Shown: positions 9,155-16,974 of the stretch, in pieces | Position numbering within the stretch: the stretch's first letter is position 1 | How the letters are laid out: each line of letters opens with the position of its first letter | Assembly: GCA_029262115.1 (NCBI GenBank) | Contig: JAJCZZ010000060.1 | Span: forward strand, 1 to 36,578 | DNA length: 36,578 bases | From: Gemmatimonadota bacterium | GTDB lineage: Bacteria; Gemmatimonadota; Gemmatimonadetes; Longimicrobiales; Gaopeijiaceae | Direction of reading: 5' to 3' | Position numbers and translations under genes: made by a program | Notes under the pieces: model-generated | Databases searched by the model: none | What the model was told of the DNA's origin: nothing | Seen by the model: only the letters and a program-made list of their open reading frames with translations

Positions 9155-10744
9155 TCACGTTTCGAGGCCAGTTCGAGCGATGACGGTGTCCCGGAGGAAG
9201 AACTCATTGTCCCGCCACGGGTGGTCGACCGTGAAGTGCAACCCGCGGCTCTCTCCCCGTGACCGCGCACACCGCACGATGAGTCGGGCCACATCCAGCA
9301 GGTTCCTCACCTCGGCACCATCCGCCGACCAGGCCGCCCGCGCCCACACCGAATCATACGCGGACGCCATCTCGCGGAGCTCTGCCTCCGCCCGCGCCAT
9401 CCGCTCTCCGGAGCGGACGATCCCGGCGAAGTCCCACATGAGGTCACGGACCCGCCCGCGCGTCGCCGCCACCTCGGGGAGGTCGACCGGGTCGGGTCCT
9501 CCACTCGTCGAATGCGCTACCGGGGTGCGGGCGGGCTGAGGGGTCTTCAGAGCGGACACGACCGCCCGGGCCGCGCGGTCCGCGAAGACCACGGCTTCCA
9601 GGAGCGAGTTGGAGGCGAGTCGATTGGCTCCGTGGACGCCCGAGCACGCCACCTCACCCGTCGCGAACAGCCCCGGAAGCGAGCTGGAGCCCTCGGAGTC
9701 GATCACGACCCCGCCACAGACATAGTGTGCCGCGGGCACGACCGGAATCCCATCCGTCGGTTCGACACCGCGCGCCCGGCAGCCCGCCACCGCGTCCGGG
9801 AAGTGCCGCTCGAGCGTGGCTTCGGGAATCGGCGACGCGTCGAGGATCACATGGGGGGCGCCGCTCTTCTTGAGTTCGAAGTCGATGGCGCGGGCGACCA
9901 CGTCGCGGGGAGCGAGGGACGCGGCCCGGTGGTACCGATCCATGAAGGGGTCGCCGTCGAGCGTCCGGAGGATCGCGCCCTCACCGCGCATCGCCTCCGA
10001 CAGCAGGAAGGCCGGATCTTCGGTCGGGTGCAGCGCCGTCGGATGGAACTGGATGAACTCCATGTTCGCGACGGCCGCCCCCGCACGGTACGCCATGGCG
10101 ATGCCGTCTCCGGTCGCGATGCCCGGGTTGGTCGTATGGCGATACACCTGGCCACATCCTCCAGCAGCCAGCATCGTGGCCCGCGCCACGACCTCCTCGA
10201 CACGCCCATTCCGGTGATCGAACACCACCGCGCCACCACACACTCTTCGGCCGTCGGGACGGACCGATTCGATCAGGTCGATCGCGAGGTGGTCCTCGAG
10301 CACCTCGATGGCCGACTGATCCTCGACCGCCTTCAGAAGCGCGCTTTCGATCTCCCGGCCGGTGTGATCGCCCGCGTGCGCGATCCGGCGCCGTGAATGC
10401 CCCCCCTCCCGTCCGAGCGACAGGGCGCCTCCTTCCCCCCGGTCGAAGCGGGCGCCCCACTCCATCAGCTCCCGCACGCGCGCTGGGCCTTCCCGCACGA
10501 GCGCTTCGACAATGGGCTTGTGGCACAGCCCGGCCCCGGCAACGAGCGTGTCCTGCACGTGCAGGGTCACATCGTCGTCCTCGCCGAAGACCGATGCGAT
10601 GCCGCCCCGGGCGTAGTTCGTGGACGAGTCCGCGCGCTCCTTTTTCGTCACGAGGAGGACTCGCGCGTGCGGAGCCACCTTCAAAGCGAAGGTCAGCCCG
10701 GCGATTCCGGAGCCGATGACGAGAACCTCGACCTCCCGTGTCAT
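9155..10744 (-). CDS. nadB: L-aspartate oxidase
   Basis: FAD enzyme that oxidises L-aspartate to iminoaspartate, the first step of de novo NAD synthesis. 529 aa from ATG 10744, which overlaps the lpxK stop as ATGA. The frame runs on to 11083 but that part is the shadow of lpxK. The N-terminus VEVLVIGSGIAGLTFALKVA is the dinucleotide-binding fold. SSTNYARGGIASVF and the stretch REGGHSRRRIAHAGDHTG are the family's substrate/FAD blocks, followed by EFIQFHPTAL and GLFATGEVACSGVHGANRLA. The C-terminal helical domain is present. The partners nadA and nadC are not in the window. Placement inside a lipid A run is unusual but the 4-base overlap shows tight coupling to lpxK. Confidence 0.95.
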   Translation of the reverse strand: MTREVEVLVIGSGIAGLTFALKVAPHARVLLVTKKERADSSTNYARGGIASVFGEDDDVTLHVQDTLVAGAGLCHKPIVEALVREGPARVRELMEWGARFDRGEGGALSLGREGGHSRRRIAHAGDHTGREIESALLKAVEDQSAIEVLEDHLAIDLIESVRPDGRRVCGGAVVFDHRNGRVEEVVARATMLAAGGCGQVYRHTTNPGIATGDGIAMAYRAGAAVANMEFIQFHPTALHPTEDPAFLLSEAMRGEGAILRTLDGDPFMDRYHRAASLAPRDVVARAIDFELKKSGAPHVILDASPIPEATLERHFPDAVAGCRARGVEPTDGIPVVPAAHYVCGGVVIDSEGSSSLPGLFATGEVACSGVHGANRLASNSLLEAVVFADRAARAVVSALKTPQPARTPVAHSTSGGPDPVDLPEVAATRGRVRDLMWDFAGIVRSGERMARAEAELREMASAYDSVWARAAWSADGAEVRNLLDVARLIVRCARSRGESRGLHFTVDHPWRDNEFFLRDTVIARTGLET

Positions 10745-11745
10745 GGGCCGCCGCCGATCACCAGGTCTGTCACCTGCTCCTCCCCCTGTTCCCAGATCAT
10801 CGACTGAACCATTACCCGCACGGATGGAAGGTCCGCCGCATGGTGCTCGAGCTTCACCGCGTCCTTCTCGGTCACGATGATGACGCGAGACCCCGCCGCC
10901 CGGCGAATGGCCCGTACGTCGTCCTCCGAAAAGGCGTGGTGGTCCGGGTACGCCATCAACTCCATCCCCACACCCAACTCGCGCTCCGCCAGATCCATCA
11001 CCGTGCGCGGGCGCGCCACGCCCGTAACAACCAATGCCGACCCGTCGGGAGGGTCCGAAGGCGCCTGGTCGAGGCCTTCCCACCCCCCCAAGCCCAGCGA
11101 CAGTCGACCCACCACGAGGTGGGGGAATGTCTCGGACACGCGCTCCACGATGGCTCCGGCCACGTCGCGTGGTGCGCTCTTGCGCGTGACCACGACACCA
11201 TCGGCCCGCGCCAGGGACGCGACCGGCTCGCGATTCCGTCCAACCGGCAGGAGGCGCCCAGGGAAGGGGTCCTCCGCGGCCAGCAGAACCAGATCCACGT
11301 CACGGGTGAGCGCCCGGTGCTGAAAGCCGTCGTCCAGCACGACCGCGTCGGCGCCGTCCCGGCGGGCCGACTCGGCGCCCGCGATCCGGTCCGCACCCGG
11401 GACCACCGGAACCGATGGATTCCATCGGGCGTGCAGGAGCGTTTCGTCGCCTCCATACCCACGGAGGAGGAGCGCGGGGCGGTACCCGGCGCTCTCGAGC
11501 ACGCGCACCGTCCATCGTGCCACCGGCGTCTTTCCCGTCCCACCCAACGCGAGATTGCCGATTGACACCGCTCTCAGGCCGGAGACCACGTGCCCACCAT
11601 CCCGGTCGAAGGCACGGTTCCGCCGGCGAACAGCAGCAGCGTACACATGCTCGAGCGGAGATAGGACCGATCGGGCGATACGAGCGACGCCGCCGTCCGG
11701 CGCATCCCACAACGCCCCCAGCGCGGGCTCGACGAACGCCCTCAC
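10741..11745 (-). CDS. lpxK: Tetraacyldisaccharide 4'-kinase LpxK
   Basis: Inner-membrane kinase that phosphorylates the 4' position of tetraacyldisaccharide-1-phosphate to give lipid IVA. 334 aa from GTG 11745, which overlaps the stop of the DUF374 gene as GTGA. The upstream open frame is a shadow. The P-loop lies in SIGNLALGGTGKTPVARW (about residues 60-77); LLLRGYGG and VVLDDGFQHRALTRDVDLVL are the other family blocks, with the conserved DDGFQH. FPDHH-type motif appears as YPDHHAFS near residue 270, followed by VTEKDAVK. Its stop overlaps nadB. Confidence 0.96.
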   Translation of the reverse strand: MRAFVEPALGALWDAPDGGVARIARSVLSPLEHVYAAAVRRRNRAFDRDGGHVVSGLRAVSIGNLALGGTGKTPVARWTVRVLESAGYRPALLLRGYGGDETLLHARWNPSVPVVPGADRIAGAESARRDGADAVVLDDGFQHRALTRDVDLVLLAAEDPFPGRLLPVGRNREPVASLARADGVVVTRKSAPRDVAGAIVERVSETFPHLVVGRLSLGLGGWEGLDQAPSDPPDGSALVVTGVARPRTVMDLAERELGVGMELMAYPDHHAFSEDDVRAIRRAAGSRVIIVTEKDAVKLEHHAADLPSVRVMVQSMIWEQGEEQVTDLVIGGGP

Positions 11746-12389
11746 CCGTCGAGTTGGTGCTCGAGACGCGATGTCATCGCATTCAGCGTGTCCTGAACGT
11801 CCGAGCTGAGGCGATCCAGTTCGTCCCTTCCGGCGTGCCGCGGTACCACGACCGCGGGCGCATACGCGATCCGCAGTCGCGCGAACGGCTTCGGTATCAT
11901 GAATCGATCCCAACTCCGCATTCTCCAGGCGGAGGAAGCCGCAACGGCCAGCGGTATGATCGGGCACCCGGTCGCCTGCGCCACGGCCAAGGCGCCGGGC
12001 TTCATGACTCCTGTGGGCCCGCGTGGCCCGTCTGGCGTCAGAGCGAGGTCCCGACCGGCCCGGGCCGCCCGAATCAGCCCCTTCAATCCGCGGGTCGCCC
12101 CTCGTGTACTCGAGCCCCGGACGGTTCCAAAGCCGTGTCTCTGGATGATCCGAGTGATGTACTCTCCGTCCGCGTGCTCGCTGACCAGCACGACGATGTC
12201 CTCGCCCCGGTGGTAGTGCACGAGCGGAAGAAGCTGGCCGTGCCAGAAGACGAAGACGACCGGACGGCCACGGTCCCGGAACCGGGCGGGGTGCTCGACA
12301 CCCTCGCGCACCACCCGGGTGGTGGCGAAGAGCGCCCCGATCGTGCCCATTCCGAGAACTCCCGCCGTTTCGAACTTCAGTTCGGTCAT
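11742..12389 (-). CDS. DUF374-family lysophospholipid acyltransferase-like protein
   Basis: 215 aa, family DUF374 of the LPLAT superfamily. The signature is WHGQLLPLVHYH near residues 49-60, then LVSEHADGEYITRIIQRHGF, VRGSSTRGATRGLKGLI and ALTPDGPRGPTGVMKPG. The WHGQ histidine takes the place of the HX4D catalytic motif of other acyltransferases, and the TPDGPRGP loop is the acceptor-side block. An N-terminal hydrophobic segment could anchor it to the membrane. It overlaps lpxB (ATGA) at its start and lpxK (GTGA) at its stop, so a role in lipid A acylation is a sensible inference, perhaps doing the work of LpxL/LpxM, which are not in the window. The substrate is not known for the family. Confidence 0.88.
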   Translation of the reverse strand: MTELKFETAGVLGMGTIGALFATTRVVREGVEHPARFRDRGRPVVFVFWHGQLLPLVHYHRGEDIVVLVSEHADGEYITRIIQRHGFGTVRGSSTRGATRGLKGLIRAARAGRDLALTPDGPRGPTGVMKPGALAVAQATGCPIIPLAVAASSAWRMRSWDRFMIPKPFARLRIAYAPAVVVPRHAGRDELDRLSSDVQDTLNAMTSRLEHQLDG

Positions 12390-13513
12390 GCGTCGGCCCC
12401 AACGATGTCGAGCGCGAGGGCGGCAACCCGCTCCGCGGCACCCGGCGTACCGAGCGTCGCGCGGACCTGCGCCAATCCTTCGAGCTGTTCGTCGCGCTCA
12501 ACCGAAGCCTCGTCCAGTAGCGGTGCGAGCGCCTCGGCCATCCGCTCCGGGGTCACCGCGTCCTGCAGAAGTTCGGGAACGAGCCGCCGTCCGAGAACCA
12601 GATTCGGAAGCGCTACGTCCGGCACCCGCAGGAGTCGGTGGGCAACGGCCCACGTCATGCGACTCGTCCGGTACGCGACCACCATCGGCGTGCCCTCGAG
12701 CGCCGTTTCGAGGGTCGACGTGCCCGACTTCACGAGAACGGCGCGGCTGTGCCGCTGGAGGGCCCGAACCGATCGCGTCACCGGAAAGCCCGACGCGTCC
12801 AAGACGGCGTCCGGCACTCCGGGCGCCGCTCCCCACACAGGCTGCACTTCGGGGTCGCGCTGGGTCGCGAGCCGCGCGGCATCCTCGAATCGATCGAGAT
12901 GGTGGCGGAGTTCTTGCGCGCGCGAGCCGGGGAGGAGTCCAAGGATCGGACGAGCCGGGTCGACGCCGACGGAGGCCGAGAACTCGGACACGGCCTCCAC
13001 ATCGTCGGGCCGGTCCAGGAGGGGATTTCCGACGAACGTCACGGTGGCCCCCAACGCCTCCAGAAGATCGGCTTCGAACGGGAGGATCACCGCCACGTGC
13101 GTCGCCCCTCGAGCCAGCCGGCGACCACGCCCGGGCCGCCACGCCCAGAACTTCGGCGCGATGTACCACAGGAGCGGCGTGCCCGACGCGTTGGCCCGAT
13201 CCATGATCCGCATGTTGAACCCCGCGTAGTCGACCGCGATCACGAGGTCGATATCACCCTCGAGCTCGGCCGCCACCCGCCGTTCCAGGCCACGAAAGAA
13301 CCGGAGACGCCCGAGAACTTCCGTAAAACCCATGACCGCCAGGTCCCCGAGCGTTGCGAGAAGGCGGACACCAGCGTCCGCCATGGCGGGGCCTCCGGTG
13401 CCGATGAACGAAAGCTCCGGCACGACGCCCCGCATGGCGTGGACCACCGCCGCCCCGTGCAGGTCGCCGGACGTCTCGCCGGCGAGCATCAGCACGCGGG
13501 GAGCGCGCGTCAC
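12386..13513 (-). CDS. lpxB: Lipid-A-disaccharide synthase LpxB
   Basis: Family-19 glycosyltransferase joining UDP-diacylglucosamine and lipid X into the disaccharide of lipid A, at the inner membrane. 375 aa, typical. VLMLAGETSGDLHGA at the N-terminus, then DYAGFNMRI, LWYIAPKFWAWRPGRG, TFVGNPLLD, LGLLPGSRAQEL and VKSGTSTLETALEGTPMVV are the family blocks in order. GTG 13513 is the only start that leaves the N-terminal strand intact. It has no clear ribosome-binding site and lies 16 bases after the 44-aa gene, which suggests coupled translation. Its stop overlaps the DUF374 gene start. Confidence 0.96.
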   Translation of the reverse strand: MTRAPRVLMLAGETSGDLHGAAVVHAMRGVVPELSFIGTGGPAMADAGVRLLATLGDLAVMGFTEVLGRLRFFRGLERRVAAELEGDIDLVIAVDYAGFNMRIMDRANASGTPLLWYIAPKFWAWRPGRGRRLARGATHVAVILPFEADLLEALGATVTFVGNPLLDRPDDVEAVSEFSASVGVDPARPILGLLPGSRAQELRHHLDRFEDAARLATQRDPEVQPVWGAAPGVPDAVLDASGFPVTRSVRALQRHSRAVLVKSGTSTLETALEGTPMVVAYRTSRMTWAVAHRLLRVPDVALPNLVLGRRLVPELLQDAVTPERMAEALAPLLDEASVERDEQLEGLAQVRATLGTPGAAERVAALALDIVGADA

Positions 13514-13529
13514 TGGAGGGGGAAAGCGG

Positions 13530-13664
13530 TCAGTACCGCGAGTGCAGGTACCAGACCGCGACCAGCACCATGAACAGCAGGCCCATGAGCTTGCGGGCAG
13601 GCATTCCCTGCCTGGAATCCATCCATTGCTTCTTCCGTCGACGCCGCACGCGAATCAGGGACAT
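13530..13664 (-). CDS. 44-aa basic single-pass membrane protein, function unknown
   Basis: A small frame in the gap between lpxA and lpxB. ATG 13664 follows GGAAGGAGA at about 6-7 bases, one of the best ribosome-binding sites in the window. The product begins with a strongly basic stretch (MSLIRVRRRRKKQW, residues 1-14), continues with MDSRQGMPARK and then one hydrophobic helix (residues 26-40, LMGLLFMVLVAVWYL) and ends HSRY. The positive-inside rule predicts a cytoplasmic N-terminus. It lies 25 bases after lpxA and 16 before lpxB, so it belongs to the lipid A operon. No family is recognised. It could be a small regulator or anchor for LpxB or LpxA, by analogy with small lipid A-pathway membrane proteins; this is inference only. 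Confidence 0.7.
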   Translation of the reverse strand: MSLIRVRRRRKKQWMDSRQGMPARKLMGLLFMVLVAVWYLHSRY

Positions 13665-13689
13665 CGGGACTCTCCTTCCTCGACGACTC

Positions 13690-14490
13690 TCACTGGGTAA
13701 TGCCGCGCTCGCTCGCGCGGATGAAGCTGATCAGGTGTCCGACCTCCGGAAGGCTTGCCACATCGGCGTCCACCTCGTCGAGCGCGCGCGAAAGAACGAT
13801 CCTCGAATGAAACAGCGTCCGGTAGGCGCTCTTCAGTCCGGCCCGCACCTCCGCGCCAAAACCTCGTCGGTCCAACCCAACCGTATTGAGACCGTACAAC
13901 TTCGGAGGATTCCCGGCCACCCGGCAATATGGCGGAACGTCCTGGGGCACCCGGGAACCACCCCCCACGAACGCATGCGCGCCGATCCTCACGAACTGAT
14001 GGATGGCGGTGAGCCCCCCGACGATCGCGTAGTCCTCCATGACCACGTGGCCGGCCATGTTCACGGCGTTCGAGAGGATCACATGACTCCCCAGCTCACA
14101 GTCGTGCGCGACGTGGGCATAGGCCATCAGAAGGCAGTCCGAGCCGACCACCGTTTTCCCCGAGGCCGCCGTCCCTCGATTCAGGGTCGCGAATTCCCGA
14201 ACGACCGTGCGGTCTCCCACTTCGAGGGTGGTCACTTCGCCCTTGTACTTGAGATCCTGGGGGTCGGTCCCGAGAACCGCGCCGTGTCCGATCCGGCAGT
14301 CCCGCCCCAGCACCGTGTCCCGCTCGATGTACACGCGCGGCCCGAGCTCCGTCCCATCCCCCACCTGGACGTTCGGGCCGACGATCGCGAACGGGCCGAC
14401 CAGCACCCCCTCCCCCAATTCGGCCGACGGGTCCACCAGAGCGGTCGGATGGACCGACGTGCTCGCGCCCCCACTCACCGGCATCCCCAT
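13690..14490 (-). CDS. lpxA: UDP-N-acetylglucosamine acyltransferase LpxA
   Basis: First enzyme of lipid A synthesis; moves an R-3-hydroxyacyl chain from ACP to the 3-OH of UDP-GlcNAc. 266 aa, cytoplasmic trimer. The left-handed beta-helix hexapeptide repeats run from about residue 12 to 190 (VHPTALVDPSAELGEGVLVG, VVGPNVQVGDG-type units). AYAHVAHDCELGSHVI contains the catalytic-histidine block (equivalent to E. coli His125), and GGLTAIHQFVRIGAHAFVGG follows. The C-terminal helical domain is present. I choose ATG 14490, where the lpxC-fabZ stop and this start share a base (TGATG); GTG 14493 is an alternative that adds one residue. Confidence 0.96.
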   Translation of the reverse strand: MGMPVSGGASTSVHPTALVDPSAELGEGVLVGPFAIVGPNVQVGDGTELGPRVYIERDTVLGRDCRIGHGAVLGTDPQDLKYKGEVTTLEVGDRTVVREFATLNRGTAASGKTVVGSDCLLMAYAHVAHDCELGSHVILSNAVNMAGHVVMEDYAIVGGLTAIHQFVRIGAHAFVGGGSRVPQDVPPYCRVAGNPPKLYGLNTVGLDRRGFGAEVRAGLKSAYRTLFHSRIVLSRALDEVDADVASLPEVGHLISFIRASERGITQ

Positions 14491-15788
14491 CACGTATCCA
14501 CGATCTGGGCCATCAGATCGGCCTCGGCAACTCTCTTCCCGTCCACGAACGCCTCCCCCCTCATCTTGCAGATCTGTCTACGGAACTGGACCATCTCCAA
14601 CTCGAACACCAACGTGTCGCCCGGCGTAACCGGCTTCCGCCATTTGACGTTATCCACGGACATGAAATACACGACCTTGCTCGACGGGTCCTCGACCTGG
14701 TCCATCATGAGGAGTCCGCCGACCTGCGCCATGGCCTCGACGATCAATACCCCGGGCATGATCGGATGACCCGGATAGTGCCCCTGGAAGAACGGCTCGT
14801 TGATGGTCACGTTTTTGATTCCGACCACCCGGCGTCCGGACTCGAACGAAACGATCCGGTCCACGAGTAGCATCGGATACCGGTGTGGAAGGTACTCCAT
14901 GATCCGCCCGATATCCGCCACGGGGGCGCGCCCATTCCGTCGTGTCTGGACGTCGATCGCCCGGGCCAGCGCGACGTTGCCCTGGTGGCTCGGCCGCTCC
15001 GCGACCACGTGGGCCTGGAGCCGTCGACCGAGGAGCGCGAGATCGCCGATCACGTCGCCGATCTTGTGCCGAACGAACTCGTCGGCGAACCGGAGAGGAT
15101 CCGTGAGGACCTCGTCGTCATCGAGGACCACGGTGTTCTCGAGGTTGGCCCCGAGCGCCAGTCCGCGCTCGCGAAGTGCGTCCCAGTCGCCGACGAATCC
15201 GAAGGTCCGCGCCGGTCCGATCTCCGCCGCGAATGACTCCGGATCGATCAGAAACGAGGCGTACTGACGACCGATGGCCGGGTGGTCGAAATCGATCGCG
15301 CCCGAGACCGTCAGCCCATCCGAAGGCGTGGCCACGTAGAAGCTATCGCCGGCGCTCCCGGACGACACCGGCCCGTGCAGGTTGAGGACCTTCGCCTCGG
15401 CGTCCTGGTCTACGATACCCGACGCGCTCAGGGCACCCGCATAGTCGCGAAACGAGCCATCGCGGATGGGGATCTCCGGCCCGCTGACGTCGATCAGAAG
15501 GTTGTCCACCCGCATGGACGACACGGCGGCCATGAGGTGCTCGATGGTCAGAACACGGGCGTCACCGGCACCGACCGACGTGCCCAGATCCGTGGCCACG
15601 ACATGGTCCAGATTCGCCGGCACTTCCGGGCAGCCTTCCAGGTCGACACGGCGGAAGCGAACGCCATGATCGGGCGGGGCGGGATGGAACGTGAGCGACG
15701 CGGACTCGCCGGAGTGGATCCCAACTCCCTCGAGCGTGACCGAACCCGCCACCGTGCGCTGTGATTCATCCGACATCGCGTCCCACAT
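14490..15788 (-). CDS. lpxC-fabZ: Bifunctional UDP-3-O-acyl-GlcNAc deacetylase / 3-hydroxyacyl-ACP dehydratase (LpxC-FabZ fusion)
   Basis: 432 aa with two complete enzymes. LpxC covers about residues 8-280: it starts QRTVAGSVTLEGVGIHSG, has VLTIEHLMAAVSSMRVDN (zinc His84) and ADEFVRHKIGDVIGDLALLG (zinc His241 and Asp245). This is the zinc deacetylase that commits flux to lipid A. FabZ covers about 292-432: IMEYLPHRYPMLLVDRI, then FFQGHYPGHPIMPGVLIVEA with the catalytic His337 and Glu351, the dehydratase of fatty-acid elongation. Both compete for 3-hydroxyacyl-ACP-derived material, so the fusion ties the two fluxes together. Such fusions are known in Bacteroidota and Gemmatimonadota. Start: ATG 15788 with GGAAAAAGGA before it, or ATG 15776 (MSDESQ). 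The frame further upstream is the shadow of lpxD. Confidence 0.96.
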   Translation of the reverse strand: MWDAMSDESQRTVAGSVTLEGVGIHSGESASLTFHPAPPDHGVRFRRVDLEGCPEVPANLDHVVATDLGTSVGAGDARVLTIEHLMAAVSSMRVDNLLIDVSGPEIPIRDGSFRDYAGALSASGIVDQDAEAKVLNLHGPVSSGSAGDSFYVATPSDGLTVSGAIDFDHPAIGRQYASFLIDPESFAAEIGPARTFGFVGDWDALRERGLALGANLENTVVLDDDEVLTDPLRFADEFVRHKIGDVIGDLALLGRRLQAHVVAERPSHQGNVALARAIDVQTRRNGRAPVADIGRIMEYLPHRYPMLLVDRIVSFESGRRVVGIKNVTINEPFFQGHYPGHPIMPGVLIVEAMAQVGGLLMMDQVEDPSSKVVYFMSVDNVKWRKPVTPGDTLVFELEMVQFRRQICKMRGEAFVDGKRVAEADLMAQIVDT

Positions 15789-15823
15789 TCCTTTTTCCGA
15801 CGACCGTAATGGAAGCCCGGAAG

Positions 15824-16888
15824 TTAATCGGATCCGTTTCCCGATTCGAACGCATCGAGCCGCCGTTCGAGTTCTCGGACGCGCTCCACCAACTTCGGTA
15901 GACGCTCGACGTGCGCCAGGCGGCGCAGGTTGTCGCGGTTGGGGCGGGCGGGGCTGCCGGACACCACCTCTCCGTCGCGGAGGTCGCGGAGCACCACGCT
16001 GGCGGCCGCGAGTTGGACACCGTCGCCGAGCTCGAGGTGGTTGATGACGCCCGCCTGCCCCCCCATCTGAGCGCCCTTCCCGATCCGGGTGGAGCCCGCG
16101 ATCCCGACCATGGCCGCCAGTAGAGATGCCGCCCCCAGTCGGACGTTGTGGGCCAGATGCACCAGGTTGTCGAGCTTCGCGTGCGGACCGATTTCGGTGT
16201 CTCCGATCGACCCACGATCGACCGTGCTGTTGGCGCCGATCTCCACGTCGTCGCCAATGACGCACCCGCCGATGTGGGGCATCTTTTTCGGTACCCCGTC
16301 CACCAGGGCCCAGCCGAAGCCGTCCACTCCGATCCGCACGCCCGAATGGAGGACGACGCGGTCTCCGACGGAGGAGCGAGCATACAGGACGACATGGGGA
16401 TGGAGCACGCACTCCGACCCGACCCGCGACCCGCGGCCCACGACGCTGTGGCTCCCCACCCATGTATCCGCACCAATCGAGGCGCCGTCCTCGACCACGG
16501 CATACGGTCCCAGGCCCACCCCTTCGCCCAGCACCACATCCGCGCCGACGACCGCGGTCGAATGAATCCCACCGGGGTGCGTCTCGGTGGGGTACATGCG
16601 CAGGAGAAGGGTGCGCAGCGCCGCCCGAACGTCCCCGACCACCAGTCGGGCCCGATCAGGGTCGACGAGGTCCTCCAGATCGAGTGGGAGGAGCAGGACG
16701 GCATGGTCCGATCCGACCAGATATCGCCGGTACTTCCGGGAGGCAAACAGTGCGAGGTCATGGCTCCTCGCGGTCTCGAGCGGGGCGATCCCCCGGATGA
16801 GGCGCGATCCATCCACGCCCTCGAGCCGACCGTCCACCGCGTGGGCCGCTGCCTCCAGGGACATCCCCCGCGCTGAGTCGTCGTTCAT
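15824..16888 (-). CDS. lpxD: UDP-3-O-(3-hydroxyacyl)glucosamine N-acyltransferase LpxD
   Basis: Third lipid A step, adding the N-linked hydroxyacyl chain. 354 aa from ATG 16888 (MNDDSARGMSLEAAA); ATG 16864 (MSLEAAAHAVDG) is a possible later start. N-terminal uridine-binding domain to about 95 (IRGIAPLETARSHDLALFAS), hexapeptide-repeat beta-helix from about 105 to 305, and a C-terminal helix rich in Arg/Glu. LDNLVHLAHNVRLGAASLLA carries the catalytic-histidine block (E. coli His239 equivalent), and HSGVRIGVDGFGW is the family's uracil/Asn motif. It follows skp after a 120-base gap with two hairpins and precedes lpxC-fabZ by 35 bases. Confidence 0.95.
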   Translation of the reverse strand: MNDDSARGMSLEAAAHAVDGRLEGVDGSRLIRGIAPLETARSHDLALFASRKYRRYLVGSDHAVLLLPLDLEDLVDPDRARLVVGDVRAALRTLLLRMYPTETHPGGIHSTAVVGADVVLGEGVGLGPYAVVEDGASIGADTWVGSHSVVGRGSRVGSECVLHPHVVLYARSSVGDRVVLHSGVRIGVDGFGWALVDGVPKKMPHIGGCVIGDDVEIGANSTVDRGSIGDTEIGPHAKLDNLVHLAHNVRLGAASLLAAMVGIAGSTRIGKGAQMGGQAGVINHLELGDGVQLAAASVVLRDLRDGEVVSGSPARPNRDNLRRLAHVERLPKLVERVRELERRLDAFESGNGSD

Positions 16889-16918
16889 CCGTCCACGCGC
16901 GACGATTGAAAGGCGAAG

Positions 16919-16949
16919 GCCCACGGGCGCGGACCTCGCACCCGTGGGC
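16919..16949 (-). other. Strong hairpin in the skp-lpxD gap (distal)
   Basis: Perfect 9-base inverted repeat GCCCACGGG (919-927) and CCCGTGGGC (941-949), with a further 3-bp inner stem after one mismatch. It lies about 30 bases before the chosen lpxD start. The following minus-strand bases, CTTCGCCTTTCAA, are only weakly U-rich, so it could be a partial terminator, an attenuator or a processing site. Confidence 0.5.
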
Positions 16950-16974
16950 TCCAATACCGGATCACGCTGTCGAG

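Follow-up and report, generated by a model that had tools for sequence, protein, structure and literature searches.

The window analysed here is a stretch of 36,578 nucleotides from a Gemmatimonadota bacterium, and on its minus strand a small gene lies between lpxA and lpxB. Upstream of it are lpxD, lpxC-fabZ, and lpxA, while lpxB, a DUF374 gene, lpxK, and a nadB-type gene are found downstream. The features of this locus, with their positions in the window, are as follows:

9155 to 11083, minus strand: open reading frame (ORF) with a nadB-type flavoprotein (PF00890, PF02910)
10741 to 12501, minus strand: ORF with lpxK, the true start being further in (PF02606)
11742 to 12389, minus strand: DUF374 acyltransferase-like gene, downstream of lpxB (PF04028)
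12386 to 13513, minus strand: lpxB, with a GTG start and no Shine-Dalgarno (SD) sequence (PF02684, E 4.3e-74)
13664 to 13530, minus strand: small gene of 44 codons plus stop, with an ATG start and a TGA stop
13672 to 13679, minus strand: SD-like GGAAGGAG, 7 nt ahead of the small-gene ATG
13690 to 14493, minus strand: lpxA (hexapeptide and Acetyltransf_11)
14490 to 16463, minus strand: upstream ORF with the lpxC-fabZ fusion gene, the true start being further in (PF03331, PF07977)
15824 to 16954, minus strand: lpxD (PF04613, Hexapep)

Within 14490 to 16463, a single reading frame joins lpxC and fabZ. The LpxA of the window is 54-77% identical to the copies of its relatives where these are full length.

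A sequence-only reading of this DNA had claimed a 44-residue frame that fits the gap between the two genes, 25 bases after lpxA and 16 before lpxB. The frame was found as described, running from ATG to TGA on the minus strand, with its start 25 nt past the lpxA stop and its end 16 nt ahead of the lpxB GTG. Its product, translated from the minus strand of the window, is MSLIRVRRRRKKQWMDSRQGMPARKLMGLLFMVLVAVWYLHSRY (44 residues). The same reading held that the small gene has a strong ribosome-binding site and that lpxB has a GTG start without a clear one, both of which are borne out by the anti-SD duplex energies. The GGAAGGAG duplex has an energy of -9.4 kcal/mol, a value reached by 14 of 787 ATGs (1.8%) in a comparison confined to the ATGs of the window, whereas the lpxB GTG is SD-less in the window, with a duplex energy of +0.7. 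The description of the protein itself needed some correction. Its N-terminus is basic, with 10 R/K in residues 1-26, but residues 5-12 hold 7 of these rather than the nine that had been counted. The single transmembrane helix proposed by the earlier reading agrees with a predicted helix at residues 23-43, although the hydropathy of the window copy is modest, its best 19-residue mean of 1.54 being the minimum for a family with a median of 2.31.

Across 80 loci, the protein is 44 residues long in 59, and its net charge has a median of +7 for the N-terminal part and 0 for the short C-terminus. AlphaFold2, supplied with 19 homologs, predicted a basic helix at residues 3-18 and the membrane helix at 23-43 (mean pLDDT 80, pTM 0.35), and the positive-inside rule predicts that the basic helix is cytoplasmic. 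M1, S2, L3, R10, and L26 are invariant in a wide alignment of the small protein; a few more diverged members, such as those of the Longimicrobium-like family f3, have no MSL start. Profile searches of Pfam, NCBIfam, PHROGs, and PDB returned no significant family match, only isolated weak hits, while a tblastn search of plasmids gave a single chance match (E 0.5) and phage records gave none. A suspected likeness to DUF5989 found no backing in the Pfam scans, and full-text searches on Gemmatimonadota lpx genes or small proteins yielded nothing on the small gene. Small single-span membrane proteins that are conserved and serve as accessory subunits are a known kind, with AcrZ, CydX, and KdpF as examples. 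The small protein resembles these in having fewer than 60 residues, one membrane helix, and no catalytic motif, and they too are often encoded beside pathway genes. Unlike them, it has no named family in Pfam or NCBIfam and is restricted to the Gemmatimonadota as far as tested. The kind is known, while the present family appears to be unnamed, though it may be listed in the catalogues of uncharacterised smORFs, GMSC (PMC11364881) and sORFdb (PMC11796252), whose families are of the same class, i.e. short, conserved, and mostly without domain annotation.

LpxB served to locate the first relatives, whose sequence ahead of lpxB was then read. In four of them, lpxA and lpxB are separated by a short gap, and this gap encodes the same protein at 44-46 residues and 50-66% identity. 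The frame is kept rather than broken in close relatives: within the window's own family, a profile search found homologs in 105 of 121 genomes, one copy each and mostly at E 1e-16 to 1e-24, with no internal stops, and the frame is likewise conserved across 80 distinct loci. One of the 105 (G097) has only a fragment, which lies at a contig end. Among the 16 genomes without a match, 9 also have no LpxB match, indicating that the locus is not assembled there, and in 3 lpxB is cut at the contig start. The real absences within the family amount to four genomes in two genera, namely three g28 genomes and G033 (g33). At the G033 locus (L010, L092), a start-like remnant of the small gene, MSLVRVR..., persists at the end of the neighbouring gfo gene, which suggests that the small gene was lost from this 1.6 Mb genome. 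It has also been lost in G036, and it is absent from the lpxB locus of the Gemmatimonadaceae-type genomes looked at, though LpxB is present in these. Such patchy losses (g28, g33, G036, and the Gemmatimonadaceae-type genomes looked at) say that the small gene is dispensable.

At the order level, homologs were present in 120 of 154 genomes, and a sample of the phylum, which included other families of the class, had them in 150 of 395. The latter count includes weaker matches in three genomes of another Gemmatimonadota class (E 2e-8 to 8e-4), where G156 and G159 have a 48-residue version directly ahead of lpxB; the homologs thus probably extend to a second class. Thirty genomes from other phyla gave no match to the small gene. 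In a contig scan, for which LpxA rather than the small protein served as the query, the closest LpxA records carry the names Gemmatimonadetes or Gemmatimonadota. As far as tested, then, the small protein is specific to the Gemmatimonadota.

In most relatives, lpxA is followed by a Gfo/Idh-type gene (gfo) of ~1 kb, then the small gene, and then lpxB. With or without gfo after lpxA, almost all of the loci read have the small gene immediately 5' of lpxB. Of the 64 gfo-bearing loci, 40 have the start of the small gene overlapping the 3' end of gfo by exactly 26 nt (loci with this type of overlap include L008, L012, L013, L014, and L018), and in another 16 the overlap is 29 or 32 nt. A gfo-type gene between lpxA and lpxB is also known from Leptospira, where it encodes GnnA. 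The Gfo/Idh/MocA gene of the relatives occupies this same interval (e.g. L008 377-1378) and usually has the 26-nt overlap with the small gene, but its product, unlike the small protein, is a 330-residue enzyme. It is missing from the window (13513-13690) and 15 other loci, where the small gene nevertheless stays. If the missing gfo is GnnA-like, the sugar chemistry of lipid A may differ between the lineages with and without it. A different arrangement is seen in G280 (family f8; L200 and L206), in which a diverged, weaker homolog is located between lpxA and the DUF374 gene and lpxB is on another contig.

Codon changes were counted outside the gfo overlap in genera g12 and g25; genus g101 has no such overlap. 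The pooled pN/pS of the small gene was 0.08 in g12, 0.33 in g25, and 0.24 in g101. Since within-genus pairs are not independent, single pairs were tested (binomial), which gave P values of 0.0054 (g12), 0.00044 (g25), and 2.3e-7 (g101), with some other pairs being weaker. The g101 value comes from the pair L244/L248, with 14 synonymous changes versus 1 non-synonymous change. The proposal that the frame is a genuine gene, encoding a basic membrane protein with a single span, has therefore held up, given its homologs, its conserved frame, and the purifying selection at the codon level. Judged from sequence comparison, the small frame is a real conserved gene, far beyond chance.

The genus g101 (family f7) is represented by five species, each with one genome (G240, G244, G278, G374, and G426). 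Whole-genome searches of these five genomes detected no LpxA, LpxB, or LpxK, and for LpxC they gave nothing but a C-terminal match of 64 residues in G244, adjacent to an assembly gap. The same searches matched normally in the sister genus g85 (G202), in G265, and, where it was included, in the genome of the window. All five g101 genomes keep the small gene right after fabZ; an additional match in G374 (C399) is a chance frame. At L244, L245, L248, and L249, it is located between fabZ and the nadB-type gene, with lpxA, gfo, lpxB, the DUF374 gene, and lpxK all gone from the surroundings. At L247, it is likewise preceded by fabZ, and the contig ends soon after. The g101 genomes are drafts of 82-90% completeness, and the absence of the lpx genes rests on the agreement of all five together with the contiguous fabZ-small gene-nadB junctions. 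Genes resembling bamA and skp, as judged by eye, are located just upstream at L247 and L248. There are thus hints, from gene content, that g101 is a candidate outer-membrane Gemmatimonadota lineage without lipid A. Because the small gene is kept under selection there without detectable lpxA, lpxB, or lpxK, the small protein has a role that does not depend on lipid A synthesis. The genus is in effect a natural experiment that separates the role of the small gene from LpxB.

These observations bear upon several readings of the small gene. The sequence-only reading had proposed that its translation may control the synthesis of LpxB, and a leader ORF of this sort, in which ribosomes that complete the small frame start again at the lpxB GTG, with its missing SD, and the frame sets LpxB output, fits the contrast between the two ribosome-binding sites of the window as well as the close spacing of the two genes. 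In 40 of 80 loci, -4 to +7 nt separate the small-gene stop from the likely lpxB start; 14 loci have overlaps of -4 or -1, and the gap in the window is 16 nt. However, a coupler does not need a conserved peptide, yet five residues are invariant and selection acts on the protein; the five g101 genomes keep the peptide without lpxB; and among 58 lpxB starts that were scored, ~64% show some degree of SD pairing. We accordingly regard such a leader as improbable, and control of LpxB does not stand as the main function of the small gene. A secondary coupling of lpxB to the small frame is plausible, in light of the SD-less lpxB and the spacing. In the Gemmatimonadaceae-type genomes without the small gene, lpxB in most cases adjoins gfo or overlaps with it; any coupling therefore involves whatever gene happens to stand ahead of lpxB. 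An ORF that is spurious, and conserved merely through the gfo overlap or a conserved region, could be suspected from the first ~26 nt, which overlap gfo in most relatives, but it is scarcely credible, as the same protein is encoded in the window and the 15 other loci without gfo, and purifying selection acts on codons beyond the overlap and also in g101, where no overlap exists.

A partner of the lipid A pathway would be a microprotein that tethers LpxB (or LpxA/Gfo) to the inner membrane or tunes its work there, and that g101 reused after the loss of lipid A. That the small gene immediately precedes lpxB at almost every locus, irrespective of gfo, speaks for this, and LpxB acts at the membrane face. 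Against it, five species without detectable LpxA, LpxB, or LpxK keep the small gene under purifying selection, whereas the Gemmatimonadaceae-type genomes have LpxB and do without the small gene. We consider this partnership unlikely, though a serious contender for lineages that have retained LpxB. A small hydrophobic peptide like a type I toxin would share the small size, single transmembrane helix, and basic character, but against it, each genome has one copy, always located at the same point of a housekeeping operon, and the searches gave just weak, isolated PHROGs hits, nothing in phage records, and the one chance plasmid match. A toxin of this kind is thus very improbable.

The explanation that we favour, and to which we give about an even chance of being correct, is that the small gene encodes a conserved 44-residue inner-membrane microprotein that serves as an accessory or adaptor on a larger envelope protein, in general envelope or membrane biogenesis rather than lipid A synthesis. 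In the predicted N-in topology, the strongly basic helix would be on the cytoplasmic face, and the single membrane helix would end near W-Y-L, leaving almost no periplasmic tail. The membrane helix would pack against the larger envelope protein, while the basic helix might attach to anionic lipid at the inner face, or else to a soluble partner there. The job of the small protein would then be one of general envelope or membrane biogenesis, and co-translation with lpxB in the lpx operon would only set its dosage. If the translation of lpxB is coupled to the small frame, this may be a side effect of how tightly the operon is packed. Against the favoured explanation stand the patchy losses of the small gene and its near-constant place at lpxB outside of g101 and G280, which one would hardly expect if it had nothing to do with lipid A or LpxB.

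Under this favoured explanation, the lipid A operon houses a Gemmatimonadota-specific envelope microprotein that serves a lipid-A-independent step in inner-membrane or envelope biogenesis, a statement that we hold tentatively, with slightly less than even confidence. With the small gene, the core envelope locus of this little-studied phylum gains a protein family that is conserved and apparently without a name. If the explanation is true, a lineage that shed lipid A shows that the small protein was worth keeping.
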